This document shows positions 25,083 through 61,226 of a stretch of 64,000 nucleotides of DNA, piece by piece. Origin of the DNA: Paracyclopina nana (lineage: Eukaryota > Arthropoda > Copepoda > Cyclopoida > Cyclopettidae); the NCBI GenBank assembly GCA_019096065.1, contig JAGUCH010000001.1, forward strand, positions 1,116,001 through 1,180,000, in the 5' to 3' direction. The notes beneath the pieces are model-generated. The model saw only the letters and a program-made list of their open reading frames with translations. It did not search any database and had not been told where the DNA came from. The position numbers and the translations under genes are program-made. Every line of letters starts with the position of its first letter. Within the stretch, counting starts at the first letter, position 1.

Positions 25083-25246
25083 GGCCCATACTAAAAACTG
25101 CCCACAATCGCGCACCATCGCGCACAAACGCGCACAAACGCGCAATATCGCGCACAATCGCGCACAAACGCGCAAATACTAAAAACTGCCCATGGATCAT
25201 AACGCGCACAAACGCGCACAAACGCGCACAATCTAAAAACTGCCCA
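25083..25246 (+). repeat. Left terminal inverted repeat with CGCGCAC repeats
   Basis: Matches the reverse complement of 61126-61226 from its outer end. Boxes of ACTAAAAACTGCCCA lie at 25090-25104 and 25178-25192, and a third lacking the first A at 25233-25246. Between them are about ten CGCGCACAAA-like words. The right end has two ACTAAATACTGCCCA boxes bracketing the same words. Such repeated terminal words are candidates for transposase binding (inference). Confidence 0.88.
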
Positions 25247-25422
25247 TAGATGATAATTAAGTAATAAAAAATGAATCAGAGTCAAAATTACTTATAGTAA
25301 CCCATAATTTTAAAAATTGTCAGTTCAAAGGGAACAAAACTAAGCCACTTTTTGACATTTAATTTTTTCCTAGATTTTTTTTGCAAATTTGAGATGCTTA
25401 TATCTCTAATAAGAACAAATTG

Positions 25423-28400
25423 AGAATTCTTGACCCAATGGTGAGTTTTGCTGAGAATTTGAGGCACCTGAGTCAACCCCAACATGTAGATTCAGCAAGG
25501 ATCAACAAAATCCGTTTTTTGGCTGCCCTCAAACGCCCACAGTAGTACTTTTTTCAGCTTTGAGCAGTCTCAGCATTCTTGACCCTTTGCTGAGCTCTGC
25601 TGAAAATTTGAGGCAGCTGAGTCAATTTTTAGGGCCGATTTCAGGAGTATCAACAAACTGCTAGCTACTGCCAGTGTACTGAATGTTGACAAGCATAAAA
25701 TGGAAATACAAAAATGAGTCATTTACTCACTTCTGAGACCTGACTCAGCATTCTTGACCCAATGCTGAGTTTTGCTGAGAATTTGAGGCACCTGAGTCAA
25801 CCCCAACCTGTAGATTCAGCAAGGATCTACAAAATCCGTTTTTTGGCTGCCCTGAAACGCCCACAGTAGTACTTTTTTTCAGCTTTGAGCAGACTCAGCA
25901 TTCTTGACCCTTTGCTGAGCTCTGCTGAAAATTTGAGGCATCTGAGTCAATTTTAAGGGCCGATTTCAGGAGTATCAACAAACTGCTAGCTACTGCCCAT
26001 GTACTGAATGTTGACCAGCATAAAATGGAAAGATAAAAATGAGTCATTTACTCACATCTGAGACCTGACTCAGCATTCTTGACCCAATGCTGAGTTTTGC
26101 TGAGAATTTGAGGCACCTGAGTCAACCCCAACCTGTAGATTCAGCAAGGATCTACAAAATCCGTTTTTTGGCTGCCCTGAAACGCCCACAGTAGTACTTT
26201 TTTTCAGCTTTGAGCAGTCTCAGCATTCTTGACCCTTTGCTGAGCTCTGCTGAAAATTTGAGGCAGCTGAGTCAATTTTAAGGGCCGATTTTAGGAATAT
26301 CAACAAACTGCTAGCTACTGCCCATGTACTGAATGTTGACCAGCATAAAATGGAAATACAAAAAATGAGTCATTTACTCACTTCTGAGACCTGACTCAGC
26401 ATTCTTGACCCAATGCTGAGTTTTGCTGAAAATTTGAGGCACCTGAGTCAACCCCAACCTGTAGATTCAGCAAGGATCAACAAAATCCGTTTTTTGGCTG
26501 CCCTGCAACGCCCACAGTAGTACTTTTTTTCAGCTAAGAGCAGTCTCAGCATTCTTGACCCTTTGCTGAGCTCTGCTGAAAATTTGAGGAAGCTGAGTCA
26601 ATTTTAAGGGCCGATTTCAGGAGTATCAACAAACTGCTAGCTACTGCCCATGTACTGAATGTTGACCAGCATAAAATGGAAAGATAAAAATGAGTCATTT
26701 ACTCACATCTGAGACCTGACTCAGCATTCTTGACCCAATGCTGAGTTTTGCTGTGAATTTGAGGCACCTGAGTCAACCCCAACCTGTAGATTCAGCAAGG
26801 ATCTACAAAATCCGTTTTTTGGCTGCCCTGAAACGCCCACAGTAGTACTTTTTTTCAGCTTTGAGCAGTCTCAGCATTCTTGACCCTTTGCTGAGCTCTG
26901 CTGAAAATTTGAGGCAGCTGAGTCAATTTTAAGGGCCGATTTCAGGAATATCAACAAACTGCTAGCTACTGCCCATGTACTGAATGTTGACCAGCATAAA
27001 ATGGAAAGATAAAAATGGGTCATTTACTCACATCTGAGACCTGACTCAGCATTCTTGACCCAATGCTGAGTTTTGCTGTGAATTTGAGGCACCTGAGTCA
27101 ACCCCAACCTGTAGATTCAGCAAGGATCTACAAAATCCGTTTTTTGGCTGCCCTGAAACGCCCACAGTAGTACTTTTTTTCAGCTTTGAGCAGACTCAGC
27201 ATTCTTGACCCTTTGCTGAGCTCTGCTGAAAATTTGAGGCATCTGAGTCAATTTTAAGGGCCGATTTCAGGAGTATCAACAAACTGCTAGCTACTGCCCA
27301 TGTACTGAATGTTGACCAGCATAAAATGGAAAGATAAAAATGAGTCATTTACTCACATCTGAGACCTGACTCAGCATTCTTGACCCAATGCTGAGTTTTG
27401 CTGAGAATTTGAGGCACCTGAGTCAACCCCAACCTGTAGATTCAGCAAGGATCTACAAAATCCGTTTTTTGGCTGCCCTGAAACGCCCACAGTAGTACTT
27501 TTTTTCAGCTTTGAGCAGTCTCAGCATTCTTGACCCTTTGCTGAGCTCTGCTGAAAATTTGAGGCAGCTGAGTCAATTTTAAGGGCCGATTTTAGGAATA
27601 TCAACAAACTGCTAGCTACTGCCCATGTACTGAATGTTGACCAGCATAAAATGGAAATACAAAAAATGAGTCATTTACTCACTTCTGAGACCTGACTCAG
27701 CATTCTTGACCCAATGCTGAGTTTTGCTGAAAATTTGAGGCACCTGAGTCAACCCCAACCTGTAGATTCAGCAAGGATCAACAAAATCCGTTTTTTGGCT
27801 GCCCTGCAACGCCCACAGTAGTACTTTTTTTCAGCTAAGAGCAGTCTCAGCATTCTTGACCCTTTGCTGAGCTCTGCTGAAAATTTGAGGAAGCTGAGTC
27901 AATTTTAAGGGCCGATTTCAGGAGTATCAACAAACTGCTAGCTACTGCCCATGTACTGAATGTTGACCAGCATAAAATGGAAAGATAAAAATGAGTCATT
28001 TACTCACATCTGAGACCTGACTCAGCATTCTTGACCCAATGCTGAGTTTTGCTGTGAATTTGAGGCACCTGAGTCAACCCCAACCTGTAGATTCAGCAAG
28101 GATCTACAAAATCCGTTTTTTGGCTGCCCTGAAACGCCCACAGTAGTACTTTTTTTCAGCTTTGAGCAGTCTCAGCATTCTTGACCCTTTGCTGAGCTCT
28201 GCTGAAAATTTGAGGCAGCTGAGTCAATTTTAAGGGCCGATTTCAGGAATATCAACAAACTGCTAGCTACTGCCCATGTACTGAATGTTGACCAGCATAA
28301 AATGGAAAGATAAAAATGGGTCATTTACTCACATCTGAGACCTGACTCAGCATTCTTGACCCAATGCTGAGTTTTGCTGTGAATTTGAGGCACCTGAGTC

Positions 28401-31400
28401 AACCCCAACCTGTAGATTCAGCAAGGATCTACAAAATCCGTTTTTTGGCTGCCCTGAAACGCCCACAGTAGTACTTTTTTTCAGCTTTGAGCAGTCTCAG
28501 CATTCTTGACCCTTTGCTGAGCTCTGCTGAAAATTTGGGGCAGCTGAGTCAATTTATAGGGCCGATTTCAGGAGTATCAACAAACTGCTAGCTACTGCCC
28601 ATGTACTGAATGTTGACAAGCATAAAATGGAAATACAAAAATGAGTCATTTACTCACTTCTGAGACCTGACTCAGCATTCTTGACCCAATGCTGAGTTTT
28701 GCTGAAAATTTGAGGCACCTGAGTCAACCCCAACCTGTAGATTCAGCAAGGATCAACAAAATCCGTTTTTTGGCTGCCCTGCAACGCCCACAGTAGTACT
28801 TTTTTTCAGCTAAGAGCAGTCTCAGCATTCTTGACCCTTTGCTGAGCTCTGCTGAAAATTTGAGGAAGCTGAGTCAATTTAAAGGGCCGATTTCAGGAGT
28901 ATCAACAAACTGCTAGCTACTGCCCATGTACTGAATGTTGACCAGCATAAAATGGAAATACAAAAATGAGTCATTTACTCACTTCTGAGACCTGACTCAG
29001 CATTCTTGACCCAATGCTGAGCTAAGCTGAGAATTTTAGGCACCTAAGTCAACCCCAACCTGTAGATTAAGCAAGGATCTACAAAATCCGTTTTTTGGCT
29101 GCCCTGAAACGCCCACAGTAGTACTTTTTTTCAGCTTTGAGCAGTCTCAGCATTCTTGACCCTTTGCTGAGCTCTGCTGAAAATTTGAGGCATCTGAGTC
29201 AATTTTAAGGGCCGATTTCAGGAGTATCAACAAACTGCTAGCTACTGCCCATGTACTGAATGTTGACCAGCATAAAATGGAAAGATAAAAATGAGTCATT
29301 TACTCATTTCTGAGACCTGACTCAGCATTCTTGACCCAATGCTGAGTTTTGCTGAGAATTTGAGGCACCTGAGTCAACCCCAACCTGTAGATTCAGCAAG
29401 GACCTACAAAATCCGTTTTTTGGCTGCCCTGAAACGCCCACAGTAGTACTTTTTTTCAGCTTTGAGCAGTCTCAGCATTCTTGACCCTTTGCTGAGCTCT
29501 GATGAAAATTTGAGGCATCTGAGTGAATTTTAAGGGCCGATTTCAGGAATATCAACAAACTGCTAGCTACTGCCCATGACTGAATGTTGACCAGCATAAA
29601 ATGGAAATACAAAAATGAGTCATTTACTCACTTCTGAGACCTGACTCAGCATTCTTGACCCAATGCTGAGTTTTGCTGAAAATTTGAGGCACCTGAGTCA
29701 ACCCCAACCTGTAGATTCAGCAAGGATCTACAAAAACCGTTTTCTGGCTGCCCTGAAACGCCCACAGTAGTACTTTTTTTCAGCTAAGAGCAATCTCAGC
29801 ATTCTTGACCCTTTGCTGAGCTCTGCTGAAAATTTGAGGCAGCTGAGTCAATTTTTAGGGCCTATTTCAGGAGTATCAACAAACTGCTAGCTACTGCCCA
29901 TGTACTGAATGTTGACAAGCATAAAATGGAAATACAAAAATGAGTCATTTACTCACTTCTGAGACCTGACTCAGCATTCTTGTCCCAATGCTGAGTTTTG
30001 CTGAGAATTTGAGGCACCTGAGTCAACCCCAACCTGTAGATTCAGCAAGGATCTACAAAAACCGTTTTCTGGCTGCCCTGAAACGCCCACAGTAGTACTT
30101 TTTTTCAGCTAAGAGCAATCTCAGCATTCTTGACCCTTTGCTGAGCTCTGCTGAAAATTTGAGGCAGCTGAGTCAATTTTTAGGGCCGATTTCAGGAGTA
30201 TCAACAAACTGCTAGCTACTGCCCATGTACTGAGTGTTGACAAGCATAAAATGGAAATACTAAAATGAGTCATTTACTCACTTCTGAGACCTGACTCAGC
30301 ATTCTTGACCCAATGCTGAGCTCTGCTGAAAATTTGAGGCACCTGAGTCAACCCCAACCTGTAGATTCAGCAAGGATCTACAAAAACCGTTTTTTGGCTG
30401 CCCTGAAACGCCCACAGTAGTACTTTTTTTCAGCTAAGAGCAGTCTCAGCATTCTTGACCCTTTGCTGAGCTCTGCTGAAAATTTGAGGCAGCTGAGTCA
30501 ATTTTTAGGGCCGATTTCAGGAGTATCAACAAACTGCTAGCTACTGCCCATGTACTGAATGTTGACAAGCATAAAATGGAAATACAAAAATGAGTCATTT
30601 ACTCACTTCTGAGACCTGACTCAGCATTCTTGACCCAATGCTGAGCTCTGCTGAAAATTTGAGGCACCTGAGTCAACCCCAACCTGTAGATTCAGCAAGG
30701 ATCTACAAAATCCGTTTTTTGGCTGCCCTGAAACGCCCACAGTATTACTTTTTTTCAGCTAAGAGCAGTCTCAGCATTCTTGACCCTTTGCTGAGCTCTG
30801 CTGAAAATTTGAGGCAGCTGAGTCAATTTTAAGGGCCGATTTCAGGAATATCAACAAACTGCTAGCTACTGCCCATGTACTGAATGTTGACCAGCATAAA
30901 ATGGAAAGATAAAAATGGGTCATTTACTCACATCTGAGACCTGACTCAGCATTCTTGACCCAATGCTGAGTTTTGCTGAGAATTTGAGGCACCTGAGTCA
31001 ACCCCAACCTGTAGATTCAGCAAGGATCTACAAAATCCGTTTTTTGGCTGCCCTGAAACGCCCACAGTAGTACTTTTTTTCAGCTTTGAGCAGTCTCAGC
31101 ATTCTTGACCCTTTGCTGAGCTCTGCTGAAAATTTGAGGAGCTGAGTCAATTTTAAGGGCCGATTTCAGGAATATCAACAAACTGCTAGCTACTGCCCAT
31201 GTACTGAATGTTGACAAGCATAAAATGGAAATACTAAAATGAGTCATTTACTCACTTCTGAGACCTGACTCAGCATTCTTGACCCAATGCTGAGTTTTGC
31301 TGAAAATTTGAGGCACCTGAGTCAACCCCAACCTGTAGATTCAGCAAGGATCGACAAAAACCGTTTTTTGGCTGCCCTGCCACGCCCACCGTAGTACTTT

Positions 31401-34400
31401 TTTTCAACTAAGAGCAGTCTCAGCATTCTTGACCCTTTGCTGAGCTCTGATGAAAATTTGGGGCAGCTGAGTCAATTTATAGGGCCGATTTCAGGAGTAT
31501 CAACAAACTGCTAGCTACTGCCCATGTACTGAATGTTGACAAGCATAAAATGGAAATACAAAAATGAGTCATTTACTCATTTCTGAGACCTGACTCAGCA
31601 TTCTTGACCCAATGCTGAGCTAAGCTGAGAATTTTAGGCACCTGAGTCAACCCCAACCTGTAGATTCAGCAAGGATCTACAAAAACCGTTTTTTGGCTGC
31701 CCTGAAACGCCCACAGTAGTACTTTTTTTCAGCTAAGAGCAGTCTCAGCATTCTTGACCCTTTGCTGAGCTCTGCTGAAAATTCTAGGCAGCTGAGTCAA
31801 TTTTTAGGGCCGATTTCAGGAGTATCAACAAACTGCTAGCTACTGCCCATGTACTGAATTTTGACCAGCATAAAATGGAAAGATAAAAATGGGTCATTTA
31901 CTCACATCTGAGACCTGACTCAGCATTCTTGACCCAATGCTGAGTTTTGCTGAGAATTTGAGGCACCTGAGTCAACCCCAACCTGTAGATTCAGCAAGGA
32001 TCTACAAAATCCGTTTTTTGGCTGCCCTGAAACGCCCACAGTAGTACTTTTTTTCAGCTTTGAGCAGTCTCAGCATTCTTGACCCTTTGCTGAGCTCTGC
32101 TGAAAATTTGAGGCAGCTGAGTCAATTTTAAGGGCCGATTTCAGGAATATCAACAAACTGCTAGCTACTGCCCATGTACTGAATGTTGACAAGCATAAAA
32201 TGGAAATACAAAAATGAGTCATTTACTCACTTCTGAGACCTGACTCAGCATTCTTGACCCAATGCTGAGTTTTGCTGAAAATTTGAGGCACCTGAGTCAA
32301 CCCCAACCTGTAGATTCAGCAAGGATCTACAAAAACCGTTTTTTGGCTGCCCTTCAACGTTCACAGTAGTACTTTTTTTCAACTAAGAGCAGTCTCAGCA
32401 TTCTTGACCCTTTGCTGAGTCAATTTAAAGGGCCGATTTCAGGAATATCAACAAACTGCTAGCTACTGCCCATGTACTGAATGTTGACAAGCATAAAATG
32501 GAAATACAAAAATGGGTCATTTACTCACTTCTGGGACCTGACTCAGCATTCTTGACCCAATGCTGAGCTAAGCTGAGAATTTTAGGCACCTAAGTCAACC
32601 CCAACCTGTAGATTAAGCAAGGATCTACAAAATCCGTTTTTTGGCTGCCCTGAAACGCCCACAGTAGTACTTTTTTTCAGCTTTGAGCAGTCTCAGCATT
32701 CTTGACCCTTTGCTGAGCTCTGCTGAAAATTTGAGGCAGCTGAGTCAATTTTAAGGGCCGATTTCAGGAATATCAACAAACTGCTAGCTACTGCCCATGT
32801 ACTGAATGTTGACCAGCATAAAATGGAAAGATAAAAATGGGTCATTTACTCACATCTGAGACCTGACTCAGCATTCTTGACCCAATGCTGAGTTTTGCTG
32901 AGAATTTGAGGCACCTGAGTCAACCCCAACCTGTAGATTCAGCAAGGATCTACAAAATCCGTTTTTTGGCTGCCCTGAAACGCCCACAGTAGTACTTTTT
33001 TTCAGCTTTGAGCAGTCTCAGCATTCTTGACCCTTTGCTGAGCTCTGCTGAAAATTTGAGGCAGCTGAGTCAATTTTAAGGGCCGATTTCAGGAATATCA
33101 ACAAACTGCTAGCTACTGCCCATGTACTGAATGTTGACCAGCATAAAATGGAAAGATAAAAATGGGTCATTTACTCACATCTGAGACCTGACTCAGCATT
33201 CTTGACCCAATGCTGAGTTTTGCTGAGAATTTGAGGCACCTGAGTCAACCCCAACCTGTAGATTCAGCAAGGATCTACAAAATCCGTTTTTTGGCTGCCC
33301 TGAAACGCCCACAGTAGTACTTTTTTTCAGCTTTGAGCAGTCTCAGCATTCTTGACCCTTTGCTGAGCTCTGATGAAAATTTGGGGCAGCTGAGTCAATT
33401 TATAGGGCCGATTTCAGGAGTATCAACAAACTGCTAGCTACTGCCCATGTACTGAATGTTGACAAGCATAAAATGGAAATACAAAAATGAGTCATTTACT
33501 CACTTCTGAGACCTGACTCAGCATTCTTGACCCAATGCTGAGCTAAGCTGAGAATTTTAGGCACCTGAGTCAACCCCAACCTGTAGATTCAGCAAGGATC
33601 TACAAAAACCGTTTTTTGGCTGCCCTGAAACGCCCACAGTAGTACTTTTTTTCAGCTTTGAGCAGTCTCAGCATTCTTGACCCTTTGCTGAGCTCTGCTG
33701 AAAATTTGGGGCAGCTGAGTCAATTTTAAGGGCCGATTTCAGGAGTATCAACAAACTGCTAGCTACTGCCCATGTACTGAATGTTGACCAGCATAAAATG
33801 GAAAGATAAAAATGGGTCATTTACTCACATCTGAGACCTGACTCAGCATTCTTGACCCAATGCTGAGTTTTGCTGTGAATTTGAGGCACCTGAGTCAACC
33901 CCAACCTGTAGATTCAGCAAGGATCTACAAAATCCGTTTTTTGGCTGCCCTGAAACGCCCACAGTAGTACTTTTTTTCAGCTTTGAGCAGTCTCAGCATT
34001 CTTGACCCTTTGCTGAGCTCTGATGAAAATTTGGGGCAGCTGAGTCAATTTATAGGGCCGATTTCAGGAGTATCAACAAACTGCTAGCTACTGCCCATGT
34101 ACTGAATGTTGACAAGCATAAAATGGAAATACAAAAATGAGTCATTTACTCACTTCTGAGACCTGACTCAGCATTCTTGACCCAATGCTGAGCTAAGCTG
34201 AGAATTTTAGGCACCTGAGTCAACCCCAACCTGTAGATTCAGCAAGGATCTACAAAAACCGTTTTTTGGCTGCCCTGAAACGCCCACAGTAGTACTTTTT
34301 TTCAGCTTTGAGCAGTCTCAGCATTCTTGACCCTTTGCTGAGCTCTGCTGAAAATTTGGGGCAGCTGAGTCAATTTTAAGGGCCGATTTCAGGAGTATCA

Positions 34401-35330
34401 ACAAACTGCTAGCTACTGCCCATGTACTGAATGTTGACCAGCATAAAATGGAAAGATAAAAATGAGTCATTTACTCACATCTGAGACTTGACTCAGCATT
34501 CTTGACCCAATGCTGAGTTTTGCTGAGAATTTGAGGCACCTGAGTCAACCCCAACCTGTAGATTCAGCAAGGATCTACAAAATCCGTTTTTTGGCTGCCC
34601 TGAAACGCCCACAGTAGTACTTTTTTTCAGCTTTGAGCAGTCTCAGCATTCTTGACCCTTTGCTGAGCTCTGCTGAAAATTTGAGGCATCTGAGTGAATT
34701 TTAAGGGCCGATTTCAGGAGTATCAACAAACTGCTAGCTACTGCCCATGTACTGAATGTTGACCAGCATAAAATGGAAATACTAAAATGAGTCATTTACT
34801 CACTTCTGAGACCTGACTCAGCATTCTTGACCCAATGCTGAGTTTTGCTGAGAATTTGAGGCACCTGAGTCAACCCCAACCTGTAGATTCAGCAAGGATC
34901 TACAAAATCCGTTTTTTGGCTGCCCTGAAACGCCCACAGTAGTACTTTTTTTCAGCTTTGAGCAGTCTCAGCATTCTTGACCCTTTGCTGAGCTCTGCTG
35001 AAAATTTGAGGCATCTGAGTCAATTTTAAGGGCCGATTTCAGGAGTATCAACAAATTGCTGAGTAAAGCCCAAGTACTGAAAGTTGACAGGCATAAAATG
35101 GAAATACAAAAATGAGTCATTTACTCACTTCTGAGACCCGACTCAGCATTCTTGGCCCATTGCTGAGTTTTGCTGAAAATTTTAGGTACCTGAGTCAACC
35201 CCAACCTGTAGATTCAGCAAGGATCTACAAAATCCGTTTTTTGGCTGCCCTGAAATGTCCACAGTGGTACTTTTTTTCAGCTAAGAGCAATCTCAGCATT
35301 TTTGACCCTTTGCTGAGTTCTGCTGAAAAT
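25423..35330 (+). repeat. Left 325-bp satellite array (about 30 monomers)
   Basis: The word GAGACCTGACTCAGCATTC recurs every 325-326 bp (25735, 26060, 26386, 26711 and so on). Each monomer has two related halves: CTCAGCATTCTTGACCC occurs twice about 146 bp apart, each followed by a GCTGAAAATTTGAGGCA block. Monomers carry variant bases (AAAAATGGGTCAT, GCTGTGAATTTG, GCTAAGCTGAGAATTTTAGG) that show a higher-order pattern, for example a four-monomer block of 1300 bp repeated at 26060 and 27360. The innermost monomer (35041-35330) is of the variant type common in the right array (CAAATTGCTGAGTAAAGCCC, TTGACAGGC). Open frames inside are accidental. Confidence 0.96.
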
Positions 35331-35799
35331 TTTCATTTTATCATTATTTGTTTTTATTGCGAATATTTGTCATAGATGAAAGATTTTTTCAGGTGTTCAG
35401 GAGTTTTCCATTTTCTTCCACTTCTTGATTTTGGGGTTGGATTTTTGTGAGCCAAAGTAACTTCGTCAGATTCTTCTGAAAGAAACCATTGCATCACAAT
35501 TTCAAATATGTTTGATAAACTTATTTATGAATATTTTTGGTATTTCCTTGAAGTTGCTCAGCATTCGGCACACAACAGGCACTCAGCTGACACAACAAAT
35601 CAAAGATGCAAAGTGACAGACAATGAATCAGCTGGTAATTTTAATGCAATGATTGCCAATAGCAAAAATACTTTATTATCTGGTTTAATGTAAAACTTTT
35701 TTAAAAAGTAACAAGTGCTTAAGTGGTATCACCAGAGCTTGAATTACCAAAAGAAGCTTTGTTTTGCTTCATTTTCAAGTTTTCCAGTCTCATTTCTGC
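35331..35799. other. Spacer between left array and transposase gene
   Basis: About 470 bp of AT-rich DNA forming the 3' flank of the transposase gene. The minus strand has AATAAA near 35670, about 130 bp after the stop codon. Nothing else is recognised. Confidence 0.5.
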
Positions 35800-40452: not shown

Positions 40453-40815
40453 CTGTAACCAAAATATTACCTTTCACTTTCTTGGTCAAAATGAAAAGAT
40501 TCCTTTGGCAAAGCCTCCAAAAATGAAAATAAACTTAAGGGTACCAAAATAAAGAAAACTCTGACTATTTGTGTCATTTTTCAACCAAATGAAAAATGCA
40601 AATTCCAGTATTATTATTTTGGTATGGTCTACATTTCTTATTTAATAAAAAAAGTCATATTTGCAAAAAGCAATTTTTTTGGCTATTGCAGCGCCACCTA
40701 TTGGCTTATATGTGCGAAACTTAAAAAGTCATGCATGAAAAGACAACGCACCCAATAGCACCATACTAAAACCCACACCATAACAAAAATTAAACTATTA
40801 ATCAAATAGAGAAAT
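40453..40815. other. Region upstream of the first recognised transposase exon
   Basis: The missing transposase 5' exon or promoter should be here or further right. A minus-strand ATG-initiated frame of about 11 codons before a GTACCC donor near 40540-40575 is possible but unsupported. The word AATAGGTGGCGCT (minus strand, near 40690-40703) also occurs in each copy of the neighbouring 312-bp satellite, on the plus strand. Confidence 0.4.
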
Positions 40816-41180: not shown

Positions 41181-41189
41181 ATGGTGGGT

Positions 41190-45070: not shown

Positions 45071-45079
45071 AGTGCACGC

Positions 45080-48000: not shown

Positions 48001-51000
48001 TTATGCCTGTCAACTTTCAGTACATGGGCTTTACTTAGCAGCTTGTTGATACTCCTGAAATCGGCCCTTAAAATTGACTCAGCTGCCTCAAATTTTCAGC
48101 AGAGCTCAGCAAAGGCTCAAGAATGCTGAGACTGCTCTTAGCTGAAAAAAAGTACTACTGTGGACGTTTCAGGGCAGCCAAAAAACGGATTTTGTAGATC
48201 CTTGCTTAATCTACAGGTTGGGGTTGACTCAGGTACCTCAAATTCTCAGCAAAACTCAGCATTGGGCCAAGAATGCTGAGTCAGGTCTCAGAAGTGAGTA
48301 AATGACTCATTTTTGTATTTCCAGTTTATGCCTGTCAACTTTCAGTACATGGGCTTTACTTAGCAGCTTGTTGATACTCCTGAAATCGGCCCTTAAAATT
48401 GACTCAGCTGCCTCAAATTTTCAGCAGAGCTCAGCAAAGGCTCAAGAATGCTGAGACTGCTCTTAGCTGAAAAAAAGTACTACTGTGGACGTTTCAGGGC
48501 AGCCAAAAAATGGATTTTGTAGATCCTTGCTTAATCTACAGGTTGGGGTTGACTCAGGTACCTCAAATTCTCAGCAAAACTCAGCATTGGGCCAAGAATG
48601 CTGAATCAGGTCTCAGAAGTGAGTAAATGACTCATTTTTGTATTTCCATTTTATGCCTGTCAACTTTCAGTACATGGGCTTTACTTAGCAGCTTGTTGAT
48701 ACTCCTGAAATCGGCCCTTAAAATTGACTCAGCTGCCTCAAATTTTCAGCAGAGCTCAGCAAAGGCTCAAGAATGCTGAGACTGCTCTTAGCTGAAAAAA
48801 AGTACTACTGTGGACGTTTCAGGGCAGCCAAAAAACGGATTTTGTAGATCCTTGCTTAATCTACAGGTTGGGGTTGACTCAGGTACCTCAAATTCTCAGC
48901 AAAACTCAGCATTGGGCCAAGAATGCTGAGTCAGGTCTCAGAAGTGAGTAAATGACTCATTTTTGTATTTCCAGTGTATGCCTGTCAACTTTCAGTACAT
49001 GGGCTTTACTTAGCAGCTTGTTGATACACCTGAAATCGGCCCTTAAAATTGACTCAGCTGCCTCAAATTTTCAGCAGAGCTCAGCAAAGGCTCAAGAATG
49101 CTGAGACTGCTCTTAGCTGAAAAAAAGTACTACTGTGGACGTTTCAGGGCAGCCAAAAAATGGATTTTGTAGATCCTTGCTTAATCTACAGGTTGGGGTT
49201 GACTCAGGTACCTCAAATTCTCAGCAAAACTCAGCATTGGGCCAAGAATGCTGAGTCAGGTCTCAGAAGTGAGTAAATGACTCATTTTTGTATTTCCAGT
49301 TTATGCCTGTCAACTTTCAGTACATGGGCTTTACTTAGCAGCTTGTTGATACTCCTGAAATCGGCCCTTAAAATTGACTCAGCTGCCTCAAATTTTCAGC
49401 AGAGCTCAGCAAAGGCTCAAGAATGCTGAGACTGCTCTTAGCTGAAAAAAAGTACTACTGTGGACGTTTCAGGGCAGCCAAAAAACGGATTTTGTAGATC
49501 CTTGCTTAATCTACAGGTTGGGGTTGACTCAGGTACCTCAAATTCTCAGCAAAACTCAGCATTGGGTCAAGAATGCTGAGTCAGGTCTCAGAAGTGAGTA
49601 AATGACTCATTTTAGTATTTCCATTTTATGCTTGTCAACACTCAGTACATGGGCAGTAGCTAGCAGTTTGTTGATACTCCTGAAATCGGCCCTAAAAATT
49701 GACTCAGCTGCCTCAAATTTTCAGCAGAGCTCAGCAAAGGGTCAAGAATGCTGAGATTGCTCTTAGCTGAAAAAAAGTACTACTGTGGACGTTTCAGGGA
49801 AGCCAAAAAACGGTTTTTGTAGATCCTTGCTGAATCTACAGGTTGGGGTTGACTCAGGTGCCTCAAATTTTCATCAAAACTCAGCATTGGGTCAAGAATG
49901 CTGAGTCAGGTCTCAGAAGTGAGTAAATGACTCATTTTAGTATTTCCATTTTATGCTTGTCAACATTCAGTACATGGGCAGTAGCTAGCAGTTTGTTGAT
50001 ACTCCTGAAATCGGCCCTAAAAATTGACTCAGCTGCCTCAAATTTTCAGCAGAGCTCAGCAAAGGGTCAAGAATGCTGAGACTGCTCTTAGCTGAAAAAA
50101 AGTACTACTGTGGGCGTTTCAGGGCAGCCAAAAAACGGTTTTTGTAGATCCTTGCTGAATCTACAGGTTGGGGTTGACTCAGGTGCCTCAAATTTTCAGC
50201 AGAGCTCAGCATTGGGTCAAGAATGCTGAGTCAGGTCTCAGAAGTGAGTAAATGACTCATTTTTGTATTTCCATTTTATGCTTGTCAACATTCAGTACAT
50301 GGGCAGTAGCTAGCAGTTTGTTGATATTCCTGAAATCGGCCCTTAAAGTTGACTCAGCTGCCTCAAATTTTCAGCAGAGCTCAGCAAAGGGTCAAGAATG
50401 CTGAGACTGCTCTTAGCTGAAAAAAAGTACTACTGTGGGCGTTTCAGGGCAGCCAAAAAACGGTTTTTGTAGATCCTTGCTGAATCTACAGGTTGGGGTT
50501 GACTCAGGTGCCTCAAATTTTCAGCAAAACTCAGCATTGGGTCAAGAATGCTGAGTCAGGTCTCAGAAGTGAGTAAATGACTCATTTTAGTATTTCCATT
50601 TTATGCTTGTCAACATTCAGTACATGGGCAGTAGCTAGCAGTTTGTTGATACCCTGAAATCGGCCCTAAAAATTGACTCAGCTGCCTCAAATTTTCAGCA
50701 GAGCTCAGCAAAGGGTTAAGAATGCTGAGACTGCTCTTAGCTGAAAAAAAGTACTACTGTGGGCGTTTCAGGGCAGCCAAAAAACGGTTTTTGTAGATCC
50801 TTGCTGAATCTACAGGTTGGGGTTGACTCAGGTGCCTCAAATTTTCAGCAGAGCTCAGCATTGGGTCAAGAATGCTGAGTCAGGTCTCAGAAGTGAGTAA
50901 ATGACTCATTTTTGTATTTCCATTTTATGCTTGTCAACATTCAGTACATGGGCAGTAGCTAGCAGTTTGTTGATACTCCTGAAATCGGCCCTAAAATTGA

Positions 51001-54000
51001 CTCAGCTGCCTCAAATTTTCAGCAGAGCTCAGCAAAGGGTCAAGAATGCTGAGACTGCTCTTAGCTGAAAAAAAGTACTACTGTGGGCGTTTCAGGGCAG
51101 CCAAAAAACGGTTTTTGTAGATCCTTGCTGAATCTACAGGTTGGGGTTGACTCAGGTGCCTAAAATTTTCAGCAAGGCTCAGCATTGGGTCAAGAATGCT
51201 GAGTCAGGTCTCAGAAGTGAGTAAATGACTCATTTTAGTATTTCCATTTTATGCTTGTCAACACTCAGTACATGGGCAGTAGCTAGCAGTTTGTTGATAC
51301 TCCTGAAATCGGCCCTAAAAATTGACTCAGCTGCCTCAAATTTTCAGCAGAGCTCAGCAAAGGGTCAAGAATGCTGAGATTGCTCTTAGCTGAAAAAAAG
51401 TACTACTGTGGGCGTTTCAGGGCAGCCAGAAAACGGTTTTTGTAGATCCTTGCTGAATCTACAGGTTGGGGTTGACTCAGGTGCCTCAAATTTTCAGCAA
51501 AACTCAGCATTGGGTCAAGAATGCTGAGTCAGGTCTCAGAAGTGAGTAAATGACTCATTTTTGTATTTCCATTTTATGCTTGTCAACATTCAGTACATGG
51601 GCAGTAGCTAGCAGTTTGTTGATACCCTGAAATCGGCTCCTAAAATTGACTCAGCTGCCTCAAATTTTCAGCAGAGCTCAGCAAAGGGTTAAGAATGCTG
51701 AGACTGCTCTTAGCTGAAAAAAGTACTACTGTGGGCGTTTCAGGGCAGCCAAAAAACGGTTTTTGTAGATCCTTGCTGAATCTACAGGTTGGGGTTGACT
51801 CAGGTGCCTAAAATTTTCAGCAGAGCTCAGCATTGGGTCAAGAATGCTGAGTCAGGTCTCAGAAGTGAGTAAATGACTCATTTTTGTATTTCCATTTTAT
51901 GCTTGTCAACATTCAGTACATGGGCAGTAGATAGCAGTTTGTTGATACTCCTGAAATCGGCCCTAAAAATTGACTCAGCTGCCTCAAATTTTCATCAGAG
52001 CTCAGCAAAGGGTCAAGAATGCTGAGACTGCTCTTAGCTGAAAAAAAGTACTACTGTGGGCGTTTCAGGGCAGCCAAAAAACGGTTTTTGTAGATCCTTG
52101 CTGAATCTACAGGTTGGGGTTGACTCAGGTGCCTCAAATTTTCAGCAGAGCTCAGCATTGGGTCAAGAATGCTGAGTCAGGTCTCAGAAGTGAGTAAATG
52201 ACTCATTTTAGTATTTCCATTTTATGCTTGTCAACACTCAGTACATGGGCAGTAGCTAGCAGTTTGTTGATACTCCTGAAATCGGCCCTAAAAATTGACT
52301 CAGCTGCCTCAAATTTTCAGCAGAGCTCAGCAAAGGGTCAAGAATGCTGAGATTGCTCTTAGCTGAAAAAAAGTACTACTGTGGGCGTTTCAGGGCAGCC
52401 AGAAAACGGTTTTTGTAGATCCTTGCTGAATCTACAGGTTGGGGTTGACTCAGGTGCCTCAAATTTTCAGCAAAACTCAGCATTGGGTCAAGAATGCTGA
52501 GTCAGGTCTCAGAAGTGAGTAAATGACTCATTTTTGTATTTCCATTTTATGCTTGTCAACATTCAGTACATGGGCAGTAGCTAGCAGTTTGTTGATACTC
52601 CTGAAATCGGCCCTAAAAATTGACTCAGCTGCCTCAAATTTTCAGCAGAGCTCAGCAAAGGGTCAAGAATGCTGAGACTGCTCAAAGCTGAAAAAAAGTA
52701 CTACTGTGGGCGTTTCAGGGCAGCCAAAAAACGGTTTTTGTAGATCCTTGCTGAATCTACAGGTTGGGGTTGACTCAGGTGCCTCAAATTTTCAGCAGAG
52801 CTCAGCATTGGGTCAAGAATGCTGAGTCAGGTCTCAGAAGTGAGTAAATGACTCATTTTTGTATTTCCATTTTATGCTTGTCAACATTCAGTACATGGGC
52901 AGTAGCTAGCAGTTTGTTGATACTCCTGAAATCGGCCCTAAAAATTGACTCAGCTGCCTCAAATTTTCAGCAGAGCTCAGCAAAGGGTCAAGAATGCTGA
53001 GACTGCTCTTAGCTGAAAAAAAGTACTACTGTGGGCGTTTCAGGGCAGCCAAAAAACGGTTTTTGTAGATCCTTGCTGAATCTACAGGTTGGGGTTGACT
53101 CAGGTGCCTCAAATTTTCAGCAAAACTCAGCATTGGGTCAAGAATGCTGAGTCAGGTCTCAGAAGTGAGTAAATGACTCATTTTAGTATTTCCATTTTAT
53201 GCTTGTCAACACTCAGTACATGGGCAGTAGCTAGCAGTTTGTTGATACTCCTGAAATCGGCCCTAAAAATTGACTCAGCTGCCTCAAATTTTCAGCAGAG
53301 CTCAGCAAAGGGTTAAGAATGCTGAGACTGCTCTTAGCTGAAAAAAAGTACTACTGTGGGCGTTTCAGGGCAGCCAAAAAACGGTTTTTGTAGATCCTTG
53401 CTTAATCTACAGGTTGGGGTTGACTCAGGTACCTCAAATTCTCAGCAAAACTCAGCATTGGGCCAAGAATGCTGAGTCAGGTCTCAGAAGTGAGTAAATG
53501 ACTCATTTTTGTATTTCCAGTGTATGCCTGTCAACTTTCAGTACATGGGCTTTACTTAGCAGCTTGTTGATACACCTGAAATCGGCCCTTAAAATTGACT
53601 CAGCTGCCTCAAATTTTCAGCAGAGCTCAGCAAAGGCTCAAGAATGCTGAGACTGCTCTTAGCTGAAAAAAAGTACTACTGTGGACGTTTCAGGGCAGCC
53701 AAAAAATGGATTTTGTAGATCCTTGCTTAATCTACAGGTTGGGGTTGACTCAGGTACCTCAAATTCTCAGCAAAACTCAGCATTGGGCCAAGAATGCTGA
53801 GTCAGGTCTCAGAAGTGAGTAAATGACTCATTTTTGTATTTCCAGTTTATGCCTGTCAACTTTCAGTACATGGGCTTTACTTAGCAGCTTGTTGATACTC
53901 CTGAAATCGGCCCTTAAAATTGACTCAGCTGCCTCAAATTTTCAGCAGAGCTCAGCAAAGGCTCAAGAATGCTGAGACTGCTCTTAGCTGAAAAAAAGTA

Positions 54001-57000
54001 CTACTGTGGACGTTTCAGGGCAGCCAAAAAACGGATTTTGTAGATCCTTGCTTAATCTACAGGTTGGGGTTGACTCAGGTACCTCAAATTCTCAGCAAAA
54101 CTCAGCATTGGGTCAAGAATGCTGAGTCAGGTCTCAGAAGTGAGTAAATGACTCATTTTAGTATTTCCATTTTATGCTTGTCAACACTCAGTACATGGGC
54201 AGTAGCTAGCAGTTTGTTGATACTCCTGAAATCGGCCCTAAAAATTGACTCAGCTGCCTCAAATTTTCAGCAGAGCTCAGCAAAGGGTCAAGAATGCTGA
54301 GATTGCTCTTAGCTGAAAAAAAGTACTACTGTGGACGTTTCAGGGAAGCCAAAAAACGGTTTTTGTAGATCCTTGCTGAATCTACAGGTTGGGGTTGACT
54401 CAGGTGCCTCAAATTTTTCATCAAAACTCAGCATTGGGTCAAGAATGCTGAGTCAGGTCTCAGAAGTGAGTAAATGACTCATTTTAGTATTTCCATTTTA
54501 TGCTTGTCAACATTCAGTACATGGGCAGTAGCTAGCAGTTTGTTGATACTCCTGAAATCGGCCCTAAAAATTGACTCAGCTGCCTCAAATTTTCAGCAGA
54601 GCTCAGCAAAGGGTTAAGAATGCTGAGACTGCTCTTAGCTGAAAAAAGTACTACTGTGGGCGTTTCAGGGCAGCCAAAAAACGGTTTTTGTAGATCCTTG
54701 CTGAATCTACAGGTTGGGGTTGACTCAGGTGCCTCAAATTTTCAGCAGAGCTCAGCATTGGGTCAAGAATGCTGAGTCAGGTCTCAGAAGTGAGTAAATG
54801 ACTCATTTTTGTATTTCCATTTTATGCTTGTCAACATTCAGTACATGGGCAGTAGCTAGCAGTTTGTTGATATTCCTGAAATCGGCCCTTAAAGTTGACT
54901 CAGCTGCCTCAAATTTTCAGCAGAGCTCAGCAAAGGGTCAAGAATGCTGAGACTGCTCTTAGCTGAAAAAAAGTACTACTGTGGGCGTTTCAGGGCAGCC
55001 AAAAAACGGTTTTTGTAGATCCTTGCTGAATCTACAGGTTGGGGTTGACTCAGGTGCCTCAAATTTTCAGCAAAACTCAGCATTGGGTCAAGAATGCTGA
55101 GTCAGGTCTCAGAAGTGAGTAAATGACTCATTTTAGTATTTCCATTTTATGCTTGTCAACATTCAGTACATGGGCAGTAGCTAGCAGTTTGTTGATACCC
55201 TGAAATCGGCCCTAAAAATTGACTCAGCTGCCTCAAATTTTCAGCAGAGCTCAGCAAAGGGTTAAGAATGCTGAGACTGCTCTTAGCTGAAAAAAAGTAC
55301 TACTGTGGGCGTTTCAGGGCAGCCAAAAAACGGTTTTTGTAGATCCTTGCTGAATCTACAGGTTGGGGTTGACTCAGGTGCCTCAAATTTTCAGCAGAGC
55401 TCAGCATTGGGTCAAGAATGCTGAGTCAGGTCTCAGAAGTGAGTAAATGACTCATTTTTGTATTTCCATTTTATGCTTGTCAACATTCAGTACATGGGCA
55501 GTAGCTAGCAGTTTGTTGATACTCCTGAAATCGGCCCTAAAAATTGACTCAGCTGCCTCAAATTTTCAGCAGAGCTCAGCAAAGGGTCAAGAATGCTGAG
55601 ACTGCTCTTAGCTGAAAAAAAGTACTACTGTGGGCGTTTCAGGGCAGCCAAAAAACGGTTTTTGTAGATCCTTGCTGAATCTACAGGTTGGGGTTGACTC
55701 AGGTGCCTAAAATTTTCAGCAAGGCTCAGCATTGGGTCAAGAATGCTGAGTCAGGTCTCAGAAGTGAGTAAATGACTCATTTTAGTATTTCCATTTTATG
55801 CTTGTCAACACTCAGTACATGGGCAGTAGCTAGCAGTTTGTTGATACTCCTGAAATCGGCCCTAAAAATTGACTCAGCTGCCTCAAATTTTCAGCAGAGC
55901 TCAGCAAAGGGTCAAGAATGCTGAGATTGCTCTTAGCTGAAAAAAAGTACTACTGTGGGCGTTTCAGGGCAGCCAGAAAACGGTTTTTGTAGATCCTTGC
56001 TGAATCTACAGGTTGGGGTTGACTCAGGTGCCTCAAATTTTCAGCAAAACTCAGCATTGGGTCAAGAATGCTGAGTCAGGTCTCAGAAGTGAGTAAATGA
56101 CTCATTTTTGTATTTCCATTTTATGCTTGTCAACATTCAGTACATGGGCAGTAGCTAGCAGTTTGTTGATACCCTGAAATCGGCCCTAAAAATTGACTCA
56201 GCTGCCTCAAATTTTCAGCAGAGCTCAGCAAAGGGTTAAGAATGCTGAGACTGCTCTTAGCTGAAAAAAAGTACTACTGTGGGCGTTTCAGGGCAGCCAA
56301 AAAACGGTTTTTGTAGATCCTTGCTGAATCTACAGGTTGGGGTTGACTCAGGTGCCTAAAATTTTCAGCAGAGCTCAGCATTGGGTCAAGAATGCTGAGT
56401 CAGGTCTCAGAAGTGAGTAAATGACTCATTTTTGTATTTCCATTTTATGCTTGTCAACATTCAGTACATGGGCAGTAGATAGCAGTTTGTTGATACTCCT
56501 GAAATCGGCCCTAAAAATTGACTCAGCTGCCTCAAATTTTCATCAGAGCTCAGCAAAGGGTCAAGAATGCTGAGACTGCTCTTAGCTGAAAAAAAGTAGA
56601 ACTGTGGGCGTTTCAGGGCAGCCAAAAAACGGTTTTTGTAGATCCTTGCTGAATCTACAGGTTGGGGTTGACTCAGGTGCCTCAAATTTTCAGCAGAGCT
56701 CAGCATTGGGTCAAGAATGCTGAGTCAGGTCTCAGAAGTGAGTAAATGACTCATTTTAGTATTTCCATTTTATGCTTGTCAACACTCAGTACATGGGCAG
56801 TAGCTAGCAGTTTGTTGATACTCCTGAAATCGGCCCTAAAAATTGACTCAGCTGCCTCAAATTTTCAGCAGAGCTCAGCAAAGGGTCAAGAATGCTGAGA
56901 TTGCTCTTAGCTGAAAAAAAGTACTACTGTGGGCGTTTCAGGGCAGCCAGAAAACGGTTTTTGTAGATCCTTGCTGAATCTACAGGTTGGGGTTGACTCA

Positions 57001-60000
57001 GGTGCCTCAAATTTTCAGCAAAACTCAGCATTGGGTCAAGAATGCTGAGTCAGGTCTCAGAAGTGAGTAAATGACTCATTTTTGTATTTCCATTTTATGC
57101 TTGTCAACATTCAGTACATGGGCAGTAGCTAGCAGTTTGTTGATACTCCTGAAATCGGCCCTAAAAATTGACTCAGCTGCCTCAAATTTTCAGCAGAGCT
57201 CAGCAAAGGGTCAAGAATGCTGAGACTGCTCAAAGCTGAAAAAAAGTACTACTGTGGGCGTTTCAGGGCAGCCAAAAAACGGTTTTTGTAGATCCTTGCT
57301 GAATCTACAGGTTGGGGTTGACTCAGGTGCCTAAAATTTTCAGCAAGGCTCAGCATTGGGTCAAGAATGCTGAGTCAGGTCTCAGAAGTGAGTAAATGAC
57401 TCATTTTAGTATTTCCATTTTATGCTTGTCAACATTCAGTACATGGGCAGTAGCTAGCAGTTTGTTGATACCCTGAAATCGGCCCTAAAAATTGACTCAG
57501 CTGCCTCAAATTTTCAGCAGAGCTCAGCAAAGGGTTAAGAATGCTGAGACTGCTCTTAGCTGAAAAAAAGTACTACTGTGGGCGTTTCAGGGCAGCCAAA
57601 AAACGGTTTTTGTAGATCCTTGCTGAATCTACAGGTTGGGGTTGACTCAGGTGCCTAAAATTTTCAGCAGAGCTCAGCATTGGGTCAAGAATGCTGAGTC
57701 AGGTCTCAGAAGTGAGTAAATGACTCATTTTTGTATTTCCATTTTATGCTTGTCAACATTCAGTACATGGGCAGTAGCTAGCAGTTTGTTGATACTCCTG
57801 AAATCGGCCCTAAAAATTGACTCAGCTGCCTCAAATTTTCATCAGAGCTCAGCAAAGGGTCAAGAATGCTGAGACTGCTCTTAGCTGAAAAAAAGTACTA
57901 CTGTGGGCGTTTCAGGGCAGCCAAAAAACGGTTTTTGTAGATCCTTGCTGAATCTACAGGTTGGGGTTGACTCAGGTGCCTCAAATTTTCAGCAGAGCTC
58001 AGCATTGGGTCAAGAATGCTGAGTCAGGTCTCAGAAGTGAGTAAATGACTCATTTTAGTATTTCCATTTTATGCTTGTCAACACTCAGTACATGGGCAGT
58101 AGCTAGCAGTTTGTTGATACTCCTGAAATCGGCCCTAAAAATTGACTCAGCTGCCTCAAATTTTCAGCAGAGCTCAGCAAAGGGTCAAGAATGCTGAGAT
58201 TGCTCTTAGCTGAAAAAAAGTACTACTGTGGGCGTTTCAGGGCAGCCAGAAAACGGTTTTTGTAGATCCTTGCTGAATCTACAGGTTGGGGTTGACTCAG
58301 GTGCCTCAAATTTTCAGCAAAACTCAGCATTGGGTCAAGAATGCTGAGTCAGGTCTCAGAAGTGAGTAAATGACTCATTTTTGTATTTCCATTTTATGCT
58401 TGTCAACATTCAGTCATGGGCAGTAGCTAGCAGTTTGTTGATACTCCTGAAATCGGCCCTAAAAATTGACTCAGCTGCCTCAAATTTTCAGCAGAGCTCA
58501 GCAAAGGGTCAAGAATGCTGAGACTGCTCTTAGCTGAAAAAAAGTACTACTGTGGGCGTTTCAGGGCAGCCAGAAAACGGTTTTTGTAGATCCTTGCTGA
58601 ATCTACAGGTTGGGGTTGACTCAGGTGCCTCAAATTTTCAGCAAGGCTCAGCATTGGGTCAAGAATGCTGAGTCAGGTCTCAGAAGTGAGTAAATGACTC
58701 ATTTTAGTATTTCCATTTTATGCTTGTCAACACTCAGTACATGGGCAGTAGCTAGCAGTTTGTTGATACTCCTGAAATCGGCCCTAAAAATTGACTCAGC
58801 TGCCTCAAATTTTCAGCAGAGCTCAGCAAAGGGTCAAGAATGCTGAGATTGCTCTTAGCTGAAAAAAAGTACTACTGTGGGCGTTTCAGGGCAGCCAGAA
58901 AACGGTTTTTGTAGATCCTTGCTGAATCTACAGGTTGGGGTTGACTCAGGTGCCTCAAATTTTCAGCAAAACTCAGCATTGGGTCAAGAATGCTGAGTCA
59001 GGTCTCAGAAGTGAGTAAATGACTCATTTTTGTATTTCCATTTTATGCTTGTCAACATTCAGTACATGGGCAGTAGCTAGCAGTTTGTTGATACCCTGAA
59101 ATCGGCCCTAAAAATTGACTCAGCTGCCTCAAATTTTCAGCAGAGCTCAGCAAAGGGTTAAGAATGCTGAGACTGCTCTTAGCTGAAAAAAAGTACTACT
59201 GTGGGCGTTTCAGGGCAGCCAGAAAACGGTTTTTGTAGATCCTTGCTGAATCTACAGGTTGGGGTTGACTCAGGTGCCTCAAATTTTCAGCAGAGCTCAG
59301 CATTGGGTCAAGAATGCTGAGTCAGGTCTCAGAAGTGAGTAAATGACTCATTTTTGTATTTCCATTTTATGCTTGTCAACATTCAGTACATGGGCAGTAG
59401 CTAGCAGTTTGTTGATACTCCTGAAATCGGCCCTAAAAATTGACTCAGCTGCCTCAAATTTTCAGCAGAGCTCAGCAAAGGGTCAAGAATGCTGAGACTG
59501 CTCTTAGCTGAAAAAAAGTACTACTGTGGGCGTTTCAGGGCAGCCAAAAAACGGTTTTTGTAGATCCTTGCTGAATCTACAGGTTGGGGTTGACTCAGGT
59601 GCCTCAAATTTTCAGCAAAACTCAGCATTGGGTCAAGAATGCTGAGTCAGGTCTCAGAAGTGAGTAAATGACTCATTTTAGTATTTCCATTTTATGCTTG
59701 TCAACACTCAGTACATGGGCAGTAGCTAGCAGTTTGTTGATACTCCTGAAATCGGCCCTAAAAATTGACTCAGCTGCCTCAAATTTTCAGCAGAGCTCAG
59801 CAAAGGGTCAAGAATGCTGAGATTGCTCTTAGCTGAAAAAAAGTACTACTGTGGGCGTTTCAGGGCAGCCAGAAAACGGTTTTTGTAGATCCTTGCTGAA
59901 TCTACAGGTTGGGGTTGACTCAGGTGCCTCAAATTTTCAGCAAAACTCAGCATTGGGTCAAGAATGCTGAGTCAGGTCTCAGAAGTGAGTAAATGACTCA

Positions 60001-61090
60001 TTTTTGTATTTCCATTTTATGCTTGTCAACATTCAGTCATGGGCAGTAGCTAGCAGTTTGTTGATACTCCTGAAATCGGCCCTAAAAATTGACTCAGCTG
60101 CCTCAAATTTTCATCAGAGCTCAGCAAAGGGTCAAGAATGCTGAGACTGCTCTTAGCTGAAAAAAAGTACTACTGTGAGCGTTTCAGGGCAGCCAAAAAA
60201 CGGTTTTTGTAGATCCTTGCTGAATCTACAGGTTGGGGTTGACTCAGGTGCCTCAAATTTTCAGCAAAACTCAGCATTGGGTCAAGAATGCTGAGTCAGG
60301 TCTCAGAAGTGAGTAAATGACTCATTTTAGTATTTCCATTTTATGCTTGTCAACACTCAGTACATGGGCAGTAGCTAGCAGTTTGTTGATACTCCTGAAA
60401 TCGGCCCTAAAAATTGACTCAGCTGCCTCAAATTTTCAGCAGAGCTCAGCAAAGGGTCAAGAATGCTGAGATTGCTCTTAGCTGAAAAAAAGTACTACTG
60501 TGGGCGTTTCAGGGCAGCCAGAAAACGGTTTTTGTAGATCCTTGCTGAATCTACAGGTTGGGGTTGACTCAGGTGCCTCAAATTTTCAGCAAAACTCAGC
60601 ATTGGGTCAAGAATGCTGAGTCAGGTCTCAGAAGTGAGTAAATGACTCATTTTTGTATTTCCATTTTATGCTGGTCAACATTCAGTACATGGGCAGTAGC
60701 TAGCAGTTTGTTGATATTCCTGAAATCGGCCCTAAAAATTGACTCAGCTGCCTCAAATTTTCAGCAGAGCTCAGCAAAGGGTCAAGAATGCTGAGACTGC
60801 TCTTAGCTGAAAAAAAGTACTACTGTGGGCGTTTCAGGGCAGCCAAAAAATCGGTTTTTGTTGATCCTTGCTGAATCTACAGGTTGGGGTTGACTCAGGT
60901 GCCTCAAATTTTCAGCAGAGCTCAGCATTGGGTCAAGAATGCTGAGTCAGGTCTCAGAAGTGAGTAAATGACTCATTTTTATGTTTCCATTTTATGCTTG
61001 TCAACTTTCAATAAAGCTCAGTAAAGGGCAGTGTTTAATAGCTTATTATGTAGATTATCTCTAAATCTGCAGGTTGGGGTTGACTCAAGG
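45080..61090 (-). repeat. Right 325-bp satellite array, inverted (about 49 monomers)
   Basis: Reverse-complement copies of the left-array monomer. Two subtypes occur. Subtype B (45080-49600, again 53400-54140) has CTTGCTTAATCTACAGG, GGCTTTACTTAGCAGCTTG and often GGGCCAAGAATGCTGAATCA. Subtype A (the rest) has CAGTAGCTAGCAGTTTGTTG and resembles most of the left array. Shared rare variants (TGTATGCCTG at 48975 and 53521; the GGGAAGCC change near 49800 and 54340; CTCAAAGCTG near 52683 and 57226) show a tandem duplication of about 4.55 kb, or 14 monomers. Confidence 0.96.
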
Positions 61091-61125
61091 GCCTTAAACT
61101 CAAAAATTTGAGTTAAGTATCATTT

Positions 61126-61226
61126 GTGGGCAGTATTTAGTATTTGCGCGTTTTTGCGCGATAGTGCGCGTTCGTGCGCGTTTGTGCGCGGTAGTGCGCG
61201 ATTGTGGGCAGTATTTAGTATATGCG
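61126..61226 (-). repeat. Right terminal inverted repeat
   Basis: Two TGGGCAGTATTTAGT boxes (61127-61141, 61205-61219) bracket about seven GTGCGCG-like words. Its reverse complement aligns with 25083-25193: only scattered mismatches over the outer 40 bases, including TACTGCCCACAATCGCGCA against AACTGCCCACAATCGCGCA. Confidence 0.88.

Follow-up and report, generated by a model that had tools for sequence, protein, structure and literature searches.

Can satellite DNA arise and travel inside a DNA transposon? A 64-kb stretch of the genome of the copepod Paracyclopina nana (the window: contig 1, bases 1,116,001–1,180,000, of a 91.95-Mb assembly in 10 contigs) raises this question, as 36,144 bp of it (positions 25083–61226), bounded by perfect 9-bp duplications, hold a predicted transposase gene between two opposed arrays of one 325-bp satellite. 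We consider it very likely that this is an autonomous Foldback-like DNA transposon, of a lineage that is a remote relative of the Mutator-like elements (MULEs), and that its satellite arms grew from its own terminal repeat. So understood, the element shows satellite DNA arising and travelling inside a transposon. One small assembly brings together the donor family, a transposase that appears intact, short mobile copies and arms the size of satellites, along with target duplications and a restored target site, and this joint presence makes an order of events, from terminal inverted repeat (TIR) to tandem unit to satellite arm, directly testable. The giant Foldback-like element had been proposed in an earlier reading of the sequence alone (hereafter the sequence-only reading), and a family of loci with the same tips, and with arrays starting close to them, bears this out.

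The inserted element and its dispersed family

The window contains exactly two copies of the 9-bp sequence CAAATAAAG, at 25074 and 61227, each abutting one end of the element, as the sequence-only reading had it. The matching terminal repeats described there are inverted repeats (25088–25192 against 61221–61127, 83.8% identity over 105 columns, E = 5e-29), apart from the outermost 5 bp, which are unlike (GGCCC versus CGCAT); this asymmetry is a trait of the family. The two opposed arrays, put at about 9.9 and 16 kb in that reading, cover 9,893 bp in one orientation and 15,967 bp in the other. The left array, of period 325, was reported in two rows with 21.5 and 9.0 copies, and the right array has 49.0 copies with 97% matches in the opposed orientation. 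Long inverted arms of variable-number tandem repeats, by which Foldback elements are recognized, are thus present; on renaturation, the arms of Foldback elements form a hairpin. The interval from the gene to the right array has further tandem arrays, with units of 166, 312 and 15 bp. The features, in window coordinates, are the following:

24679..25082, plus strand: left flank, 148-bp tandem repeat, the insertion target
25074..25082, plus strand: left target-site duplication CAAATAAAG, exact match
25083..25425, plus strand: left terminal repeat, tip GGCCC, tip motif ATACTAAAAACTGCCCA, present again at 25176
25103–25174, plus strand: about seven 10-bp CACAATCGCG repeats of the left terminal repeat
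25426..35332, plus strand: left 325-bp satellite array
35800..40437, minus strand: predicted transposase gene with ten exons, 726 aa, of remote likeness to MULEs; N-terminus may be incomplete
40573..40743, minus strand: a lone, diverged unit of the inner 312-bp repeat, opposite in orientation to the array at 41301
40818..41178, plus strand: 166-bp tandem repeat, 2.2 copies
41301..44574, plus strand: inner 312-bp tandem array, 10.5 copies
44657..45057, no strand: 15-bp tandem array, 26.4 copies
45084..61010, minus strand: right 325-bp satellite array, opposed to the left array
61011..61226, minus strand: right terminal repeat with two tip-motif copies and 10-bp repeats, tip CGCAT (reverse complement)
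61227..61235, plus strand: right target-site duplication CAAATAAAG, exact match
61236..61449, plus strand: right flank, where the 148-bp tandem repeat continues

When the flanks are joined with a single CAAATAAAG, they align to the upstream part of the 148-bp repeat with 176 of 243 columns identical and 12 gap columns, none of them at the junction. The neighbouring 148-bp unit, which crosses position 24934, serves as an empty site, a paralogous and not an allelic one. Target-site duplications of MULEs are about 9 bp long, with a range of 8–11 bp, and duplications of about 9 bp are found in this family. The 36,144-bp stretch is a single inserted transposable element, and its target repeat is recovered at the duplication.

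Other loci with the same ends exist, as that reading had led one to expect. Genome-wide match counts are lower bounds: the tip pattern ATACTAAAWACTGCCCAC has at least 43 exact and at least 31 one-mismatch sites, inner copies included, and the reversed control has none. For closer comparison, 40 stretches were chosen among the matches listed, four of them contiguous and merged into one locus, which together with the window copy gives 38 loci; the satellite shares below describe these chosen loci, and one satellite match, at C2:70377 on contig 2, lies outside the set. By our own tip criterion, a pair of opposed outer tips is present in 14 of the 38 loci and missing from the other 24. On one side the tip is GGCCC in 13 of the 14 two-tipped loci and GGCCA in L042, and on the other side it is CGTAT, CGCAT, CTCAT or CACAT. 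The duplication is perfect and 9 bp long in eight of these loci, and perfect with a length of 10 bp in L027. L036 and L039, 1-kb copies on different contigs that are 98.4% identical, both lack a matching 9-bp duplication and are possible exchange products between copies.

All of the satellite found in the two-tipped loci (44,199 of 44,199 bp) lies inside the tips; a mismatch between array edges and terminal repeats, named in the sequence-only reading as a refutation, did not occur there. The satellite starts 69–359 bp from the left-hand tip in 13 loci and after 3,580 bp in L027. Both orientations are present in 12 of the 14 (L037 and L046 have one), one of the two being represented by just 55–78 bp in L036, L038 and L039. 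Across the 38 loci the satellite totals 68,841 bp, of which 24,642 bp belong to the 24 loci without two opposed tips. A second giant copy on contig 2 holds 12,400 bp of this, and six tip-less loci (L051, L059–L062 and L064) hold 6,294 bp, or 9% of the 38-locus total; the rest lies in one-tip or decayed loci, and L050 and L054 have no satellite at the threshold used. One of the tip-less loci, L059 (about C8:2003100–2009500), has satellite of about 80% identity and is either a decayed giant or a free array.

The transposase gene

The sequence-only reading described an uninterrupted MULE-type transposase. The gene is not one open frame. It consists of ten predicted exons (40437–35800, minus strand; 727 codons including the stop), which together encode 726 residues without an internal stop, with introns that start with GT and end with AG at the predicted splice sites; it is thus stop-free when spliced, and its MULE character comes from remote homology. 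Compared with the genome, the largest piece (196 aa, 38968–39555) finds, besides its own locus, the second giant on contig 2 at 99% identity. It also matches two more divergent sequences: a relative on contig 5, in two parts of 49 and 35%, of which one contains a stop, and, at 23%, a distant relative on contig 3. Aligned exon parts of the two giants are 98.1–100% identical, and a near-identical gene was found only in these two copies.

In a search of about 5.8 billion protein sequences, a single significant homologue was detected, P0001 (E = 5.5e-18). This protein aligns with the MULE transposase domain PF10551 over the full domain length (E = 8.8e-5; 23.3 bits, below the cut-off of 27.6), and the relative L069 matches the domain with E = 0.076. 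Residues D59, D133 and E266, the last near a predicted splice junction, are invariant in an alignment of three proteins, at sites where a transposase would have them. MULE transposases have a D-D-E triad, and these three residues are the putative catalytic ones. The kinship of the transposase with MULEs appears remote but consistent. At E ≤ 1, nothing in the window copy corresponds to the N-terminal 629 residues of P0001, and the N-terminus of the transposase is therefore uncertain. The MULE-related proteins at C3:9082603, L069 and P0001 have a long N-terminal part, in which P0001 has a weak match to OTU proteases. The Phantom subclass of Mutator combines an N-terminal FLYWCH zinc finger with a MULE domain; no FLYWCH match was found in the predicted protein, whose N-terminus may be incomplete, and we do not assign the element to Phantom.

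Origin and growth of the satellite arms

The right terminal repeat contains a 57-bp block that is 81% identical to the satellite unit (E = 1e-11), with an alignment score of 60 against at most 27 in 200 shuffles. In the small copy L036, the satellite carries the exact 16-bp tip motif, and the inner repeat of this copy scores 78 against its satellite (shuffled maximum, 26). Allowing up to three mismatches of 15, we detected 31 tip-like motifs in forward and none in reverse orientation in the left arm (25083–35332), and 36 in reverse and none in forward orientation in the right arm (45084–61226), the terminal copies being included in both; the motifs thus face as the tip of their own arm does, that is, outward. 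None was found in the middle of the element or in the 25-kb left flank, and shuffled sequence gave 0.1–0.4. The best motif match per unit averages 3.0–3.4 mismatches of 15 in the giants and 5.7–5.9 in shuffled units. The tip motif and the 57-bp block are thus common to the unit and the terminal repeat. The simplest reading is that the TIR gave rise to the satellite, which was probably made from the element's own ends and not captured. The proposal that a true satellite had become the arms is accordingly the part of the sequence-only reading that finds no support, given these modules shared with subterminal DNA and the small share of satellite in tip-less loci.

The small copies L025 and L026 lie on different contigs, and the 9-bp duplications around them differ; their terminal 350 bp are identical at both ends, and their right sides are identical over 836 bp. 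They hold unequal amounts of satellite (1,787 + 2,147 bp in L025 and 2,436 + 1,022 bp in L026), which indicates that multi-unit arrays are present in very young copies and that their length changes quickly. Within the left array of the window, units 2, 3 and 4 equal units 6, 7 and 8 with zero differences, which points to a recent duplication within the array.

The second giant starts at C2:219344 with a left tip. Behind this tip come a left array of 3.4 kb and the gene, then a 3,717-bp block in about three copies and finally a right array of 6.4 kb, opposed to the left one. The left flank of this copy has no match longer than 100 bp in the window. No satellite was found past the right array as far as C2:257,000, and a 129-bp piece in that part matches a stretch of the window's gene region at 86%, inverted. 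The repeat at which the right array stops has inverted ends and units of about 10 bp of the GCACACAATG type (34497–36737 of L032–L035 joined, about C2:252,996–255,236). The interiors of the giants differ by 11 of 1,360 and 100 of 4,048 substitutions (0.8 and 2.5%).

We compared 151 satellite units, each with at least 300 aligned query bases. The mean unit distance is 0.035 within the window left array, 0.048 between the window left and right arrays, 0.0351 between the left arrays of the two giants, 0.030 between their right arrays and 0.082–0.094 between the giants and the small copies. Nearest-neighbour means run from second-giant left units to window left (0.0166) and window right (0.0260), from window left units to second-giant left (0.0177) and window right (0.0274), and from second-giant right units to window right (0.0089) and window left (0.0148), the greater number of window right units helping in the last case. 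The nearest units thus favour the same arm of the other giant. Colinear unit order between the arrays of the two giants was not seen. Judged by these distances, the array lineages seem, at least partly, to be older than the divergence of the giants, and several diverged units were probably present when they split.

In the mechanism that we propose, binding of the transposase to the tip motif is followed by cleavage at the asymmetric tips and by integration with a 9-bp stagger, and the enzyme may also mobilize gene-less short copies in trans. The 325-bp satellite would have started when the subterminal part of the terminal repeat, comprising the tip motif and the 57-bp block, was duplicated, and the arms would then have lengthened by tandem segmental duplication, through unequal exchange or replication slippage. 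An arm may in this way reach 10–16 kb, with few to many units carried per transposition.

Several observations weigh against an autonomous transposon with arms of its own making. No perfect duplication flanks five of the 14 two-tipped loci (L036, L038, L039, L041 and L042), and L059 holds 3,880 bp of diverged satellite without recognizable tips. The splice sites of the transposase are predictions, and neither the spliced protein nor six exon pieces gave a Pfam match reaching the cut-off. In the window, the left inner TIR matches the unit weakly (31, shuffled maximum 27). Units of the small copies are poorer in the motif (mean 4.05 mismatches of 15, minimum 0), which indicates that the tip motif is not uniformly kept. 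The young short copies L025–L028 are about 80% identical to the window copy in the terminal 350 bp of the right end and 83.5–92.7% identical over 178–206 bp at the left end; given the divergence of about 20%, the window giant is not their direct parent, and their mobilization by its transposase can only be presumed. The mean distance between the window left and second-giant right arrays (0.0335) is as low as that to the second-giant left array, so that the means do not separate the arms and the same-arm signal comes from the nearest neighbours. Finally, no right end was found for the second giant, whose right array stops at the other repeat with inverted ends.

Among the alternatives, growth in place fares best. 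A short element, its arms one or two units long, would have been inserted at both giant sites, and each copy would then have grown separately. This concerns only the timing of arm growth and is compatible with the identity of the element favoured here. The zero-difference unit blocks in the window left array agree with it, as do the unequal array lengths between the giants and between L025 and L026. However, the left-array units of the two giants interleave, with eight of the nine second-giant left units within 0.6–2.2% of the nearest window left unit and the ninth at 4.0%; given the mean of 3.5% within the window left array, several diverged lineages appear older than the split, the giant interiors differing by the 0.8 and 2.5% given above. 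Gene conversion between the giants could mimic such interleaving, and we regard separate growth at the two sites as possible, if somewhat doubtful.

Capture of an independent genomic satellite, taken into the foldback arms as cargo, appears improbable. It could account for the 6,294 bp of satellite outside recognizable tips (L051, L059, L060, L061, L062 and L064), the arrays of about 80% identity at L059 and the poorer tip motif in small-copy units than in the giants. It does not sit well with a tip motif and a 57-bp block common to unit and terminal repeat, nor with the occurrence of the unit in both orientations at most two-tipped loci; moreover, the tip-less loci except L059 have one to few diverged units, as in decayed elements. 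It is highly improbable that we are dealing with an assembly artefact or a plain segmental duplication instead of transposition: long near-identical repeats are prone to assembly error, and the 3,717-bp block of the second giant is present in about three copies, with 99.9% identity across the 2,860 bp that were compared, but tips closely backed by arrays recur at independent loci with different 9-bp duplications, the second giant's left flank lacks matches of over 100 bp to the window, and the duplication site restores the target repeat.

Arms produced from the element's own terminal repeat might also serve it. The satellite could be a working part of the transposon, each unit offering a putative spare binding site for the transposase, oriented as the tip is; we put this forward tentatively and hold it to be rather unlikely. 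If it were true, long arms would be landing platforms that help large autonomous copies to transpose or to hold transposase, and it would be selection on the element that creates and maintains a satellite, and not the chromosome biology of the host. The lineage would then be a recurrent satellite factory, given that a second family built another satellite likewise.

A second family and known relatives

The diverged transposase relative on contig 5 sits between 180- and 170-bp repeats, which are 74–81% identical to the 166-bp repeat of the window in full-length matches. Among the matches listed, opposed arrays of a unit of about 177 bp occur on contigs 3, 4, 5 and 6 (stretches L074–L081). Three loci lie on contig 5 (C5:4711757–4725991, C5:5749522–5756968 and C5:7325051–7328882), and the others are C3:9302456–9307798, C6:3758091–3765185 and C4:6154699–6163234. 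Ends were inspected at four loci. Two of them have both ends defined, with the tips CGTATATAC and (reverse complement) GGTACATACTAAAAACCGCACC, and with a second copy of the tip motif and short CCGCACCAAA-type repeats at the right-hand end; their 9-bp duplications are CCTTCAAAC and CAAGAAAAC. The other two have no complete end pair, the contig 6 locus having a right-type tip. A transposase relative is present at one locus. This is a second family with a different satellite and the same design, which suggests that the route is repeatable.

Among known systems, FB/NOF of Drosophila melanogaster has foldback tandem-repeat arms, a 9-bp duplication and, in some copies, a MULE-related protein; the likeness to the window element in these three traits is one of description alone, and FB/NOF arms consist of a few kilobases of short repeats. 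The arms of Galileo are also much shorter than those of the window element. Galileo is described as having foldback-like TIRs whose internal tandem repeats carry further transposase-binding sites, and it differs in belonging to the P superfamily (PMC3688188).

The closest known systems are Tm1, which the element resembles in its ends and duplication, and Tetris, which it resembles in the origin of its satellite. According to extracts of its description (PMC3169594), Tm1 of root-knot nematodes is a Mutator/Foldback element with 9-bp duplications, asymmetric short outer tips and TIRs with variable tandem repeats of about 14 bp (1–9 units); a rare coding class (coding element, 2,593 bp), with a spliced MULE-related transposase whose N-terminus is FLYWCH-like, stands beside many non-coding relatives. 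The ends, the 9-bp duplication, the asymmetric tips, the rare coding class and the spliced transposase are common to both. Membership in Tm1 was rejected by eye, on the tips GGCCC/CGYAT with 10-bp repeats here versus CGGTTAA/CCTACCC with repeats of about 14 bp in the sequences given for Tm1 (PMC3169594).

Tetris, a foldback element of Drosophila virilis, is described in the sections available (PMC4079207) as having tandem repeats of about 220 bp within its TIRs and target duplications of 8–10 bp. The repeats share a 37-bp stretch (about 80%) with the outer TIR and are proposed to derive from it. Array length varies, with satellite-like arrays of up to 66 copies, and fluorescence in situ hybridization on fibres (fibre-FISH) placed long arrays between outer TIR segments (PMC4079207). 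Such arrays are a precedent for arms of satellite length, and the shared design, compared by description, is a TIR-derived tandem repeat forming satellite-like arrays; the element is not classed as Tetris on this ground. The two differ in that those sections report no transposase found in Tetris, whereas the window arms, of 10 and 16 kb, are sequence-resolved and flank an apparently intact gene, with a 9-bp duplication around the whole. TIRs appear among satellite sources in a review table that, in the part seen, marks the foldback case Tetris as non-autonomous (PMC9659126). Among the titles and abstract openings listed, we found no transposase-coding foldback element with satellite arms this large, which does not prove absence.

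The inner 312-bp repeat of the window element also occurs elsewhere, in pieces forming facing pairs 3–15 kb apart, as if they were the arms of another element family (C1:5969701/5984283, C4:3435517/3441992 and C2:11418538/11421928). An array of this repeat with 86–92% identity (C5:4700175–4702762, L073) lies about 15 kb from the transposase relative on contig 5. TTAGGG repeats were found at a single place in the genome, on contig 8. Around the element, the window has other tandem repeats, at 1352–1846 (21 bp), 7438–8173 (20 bp), 13223–13992 (386 bp) and 62829–62956 (26 bp).

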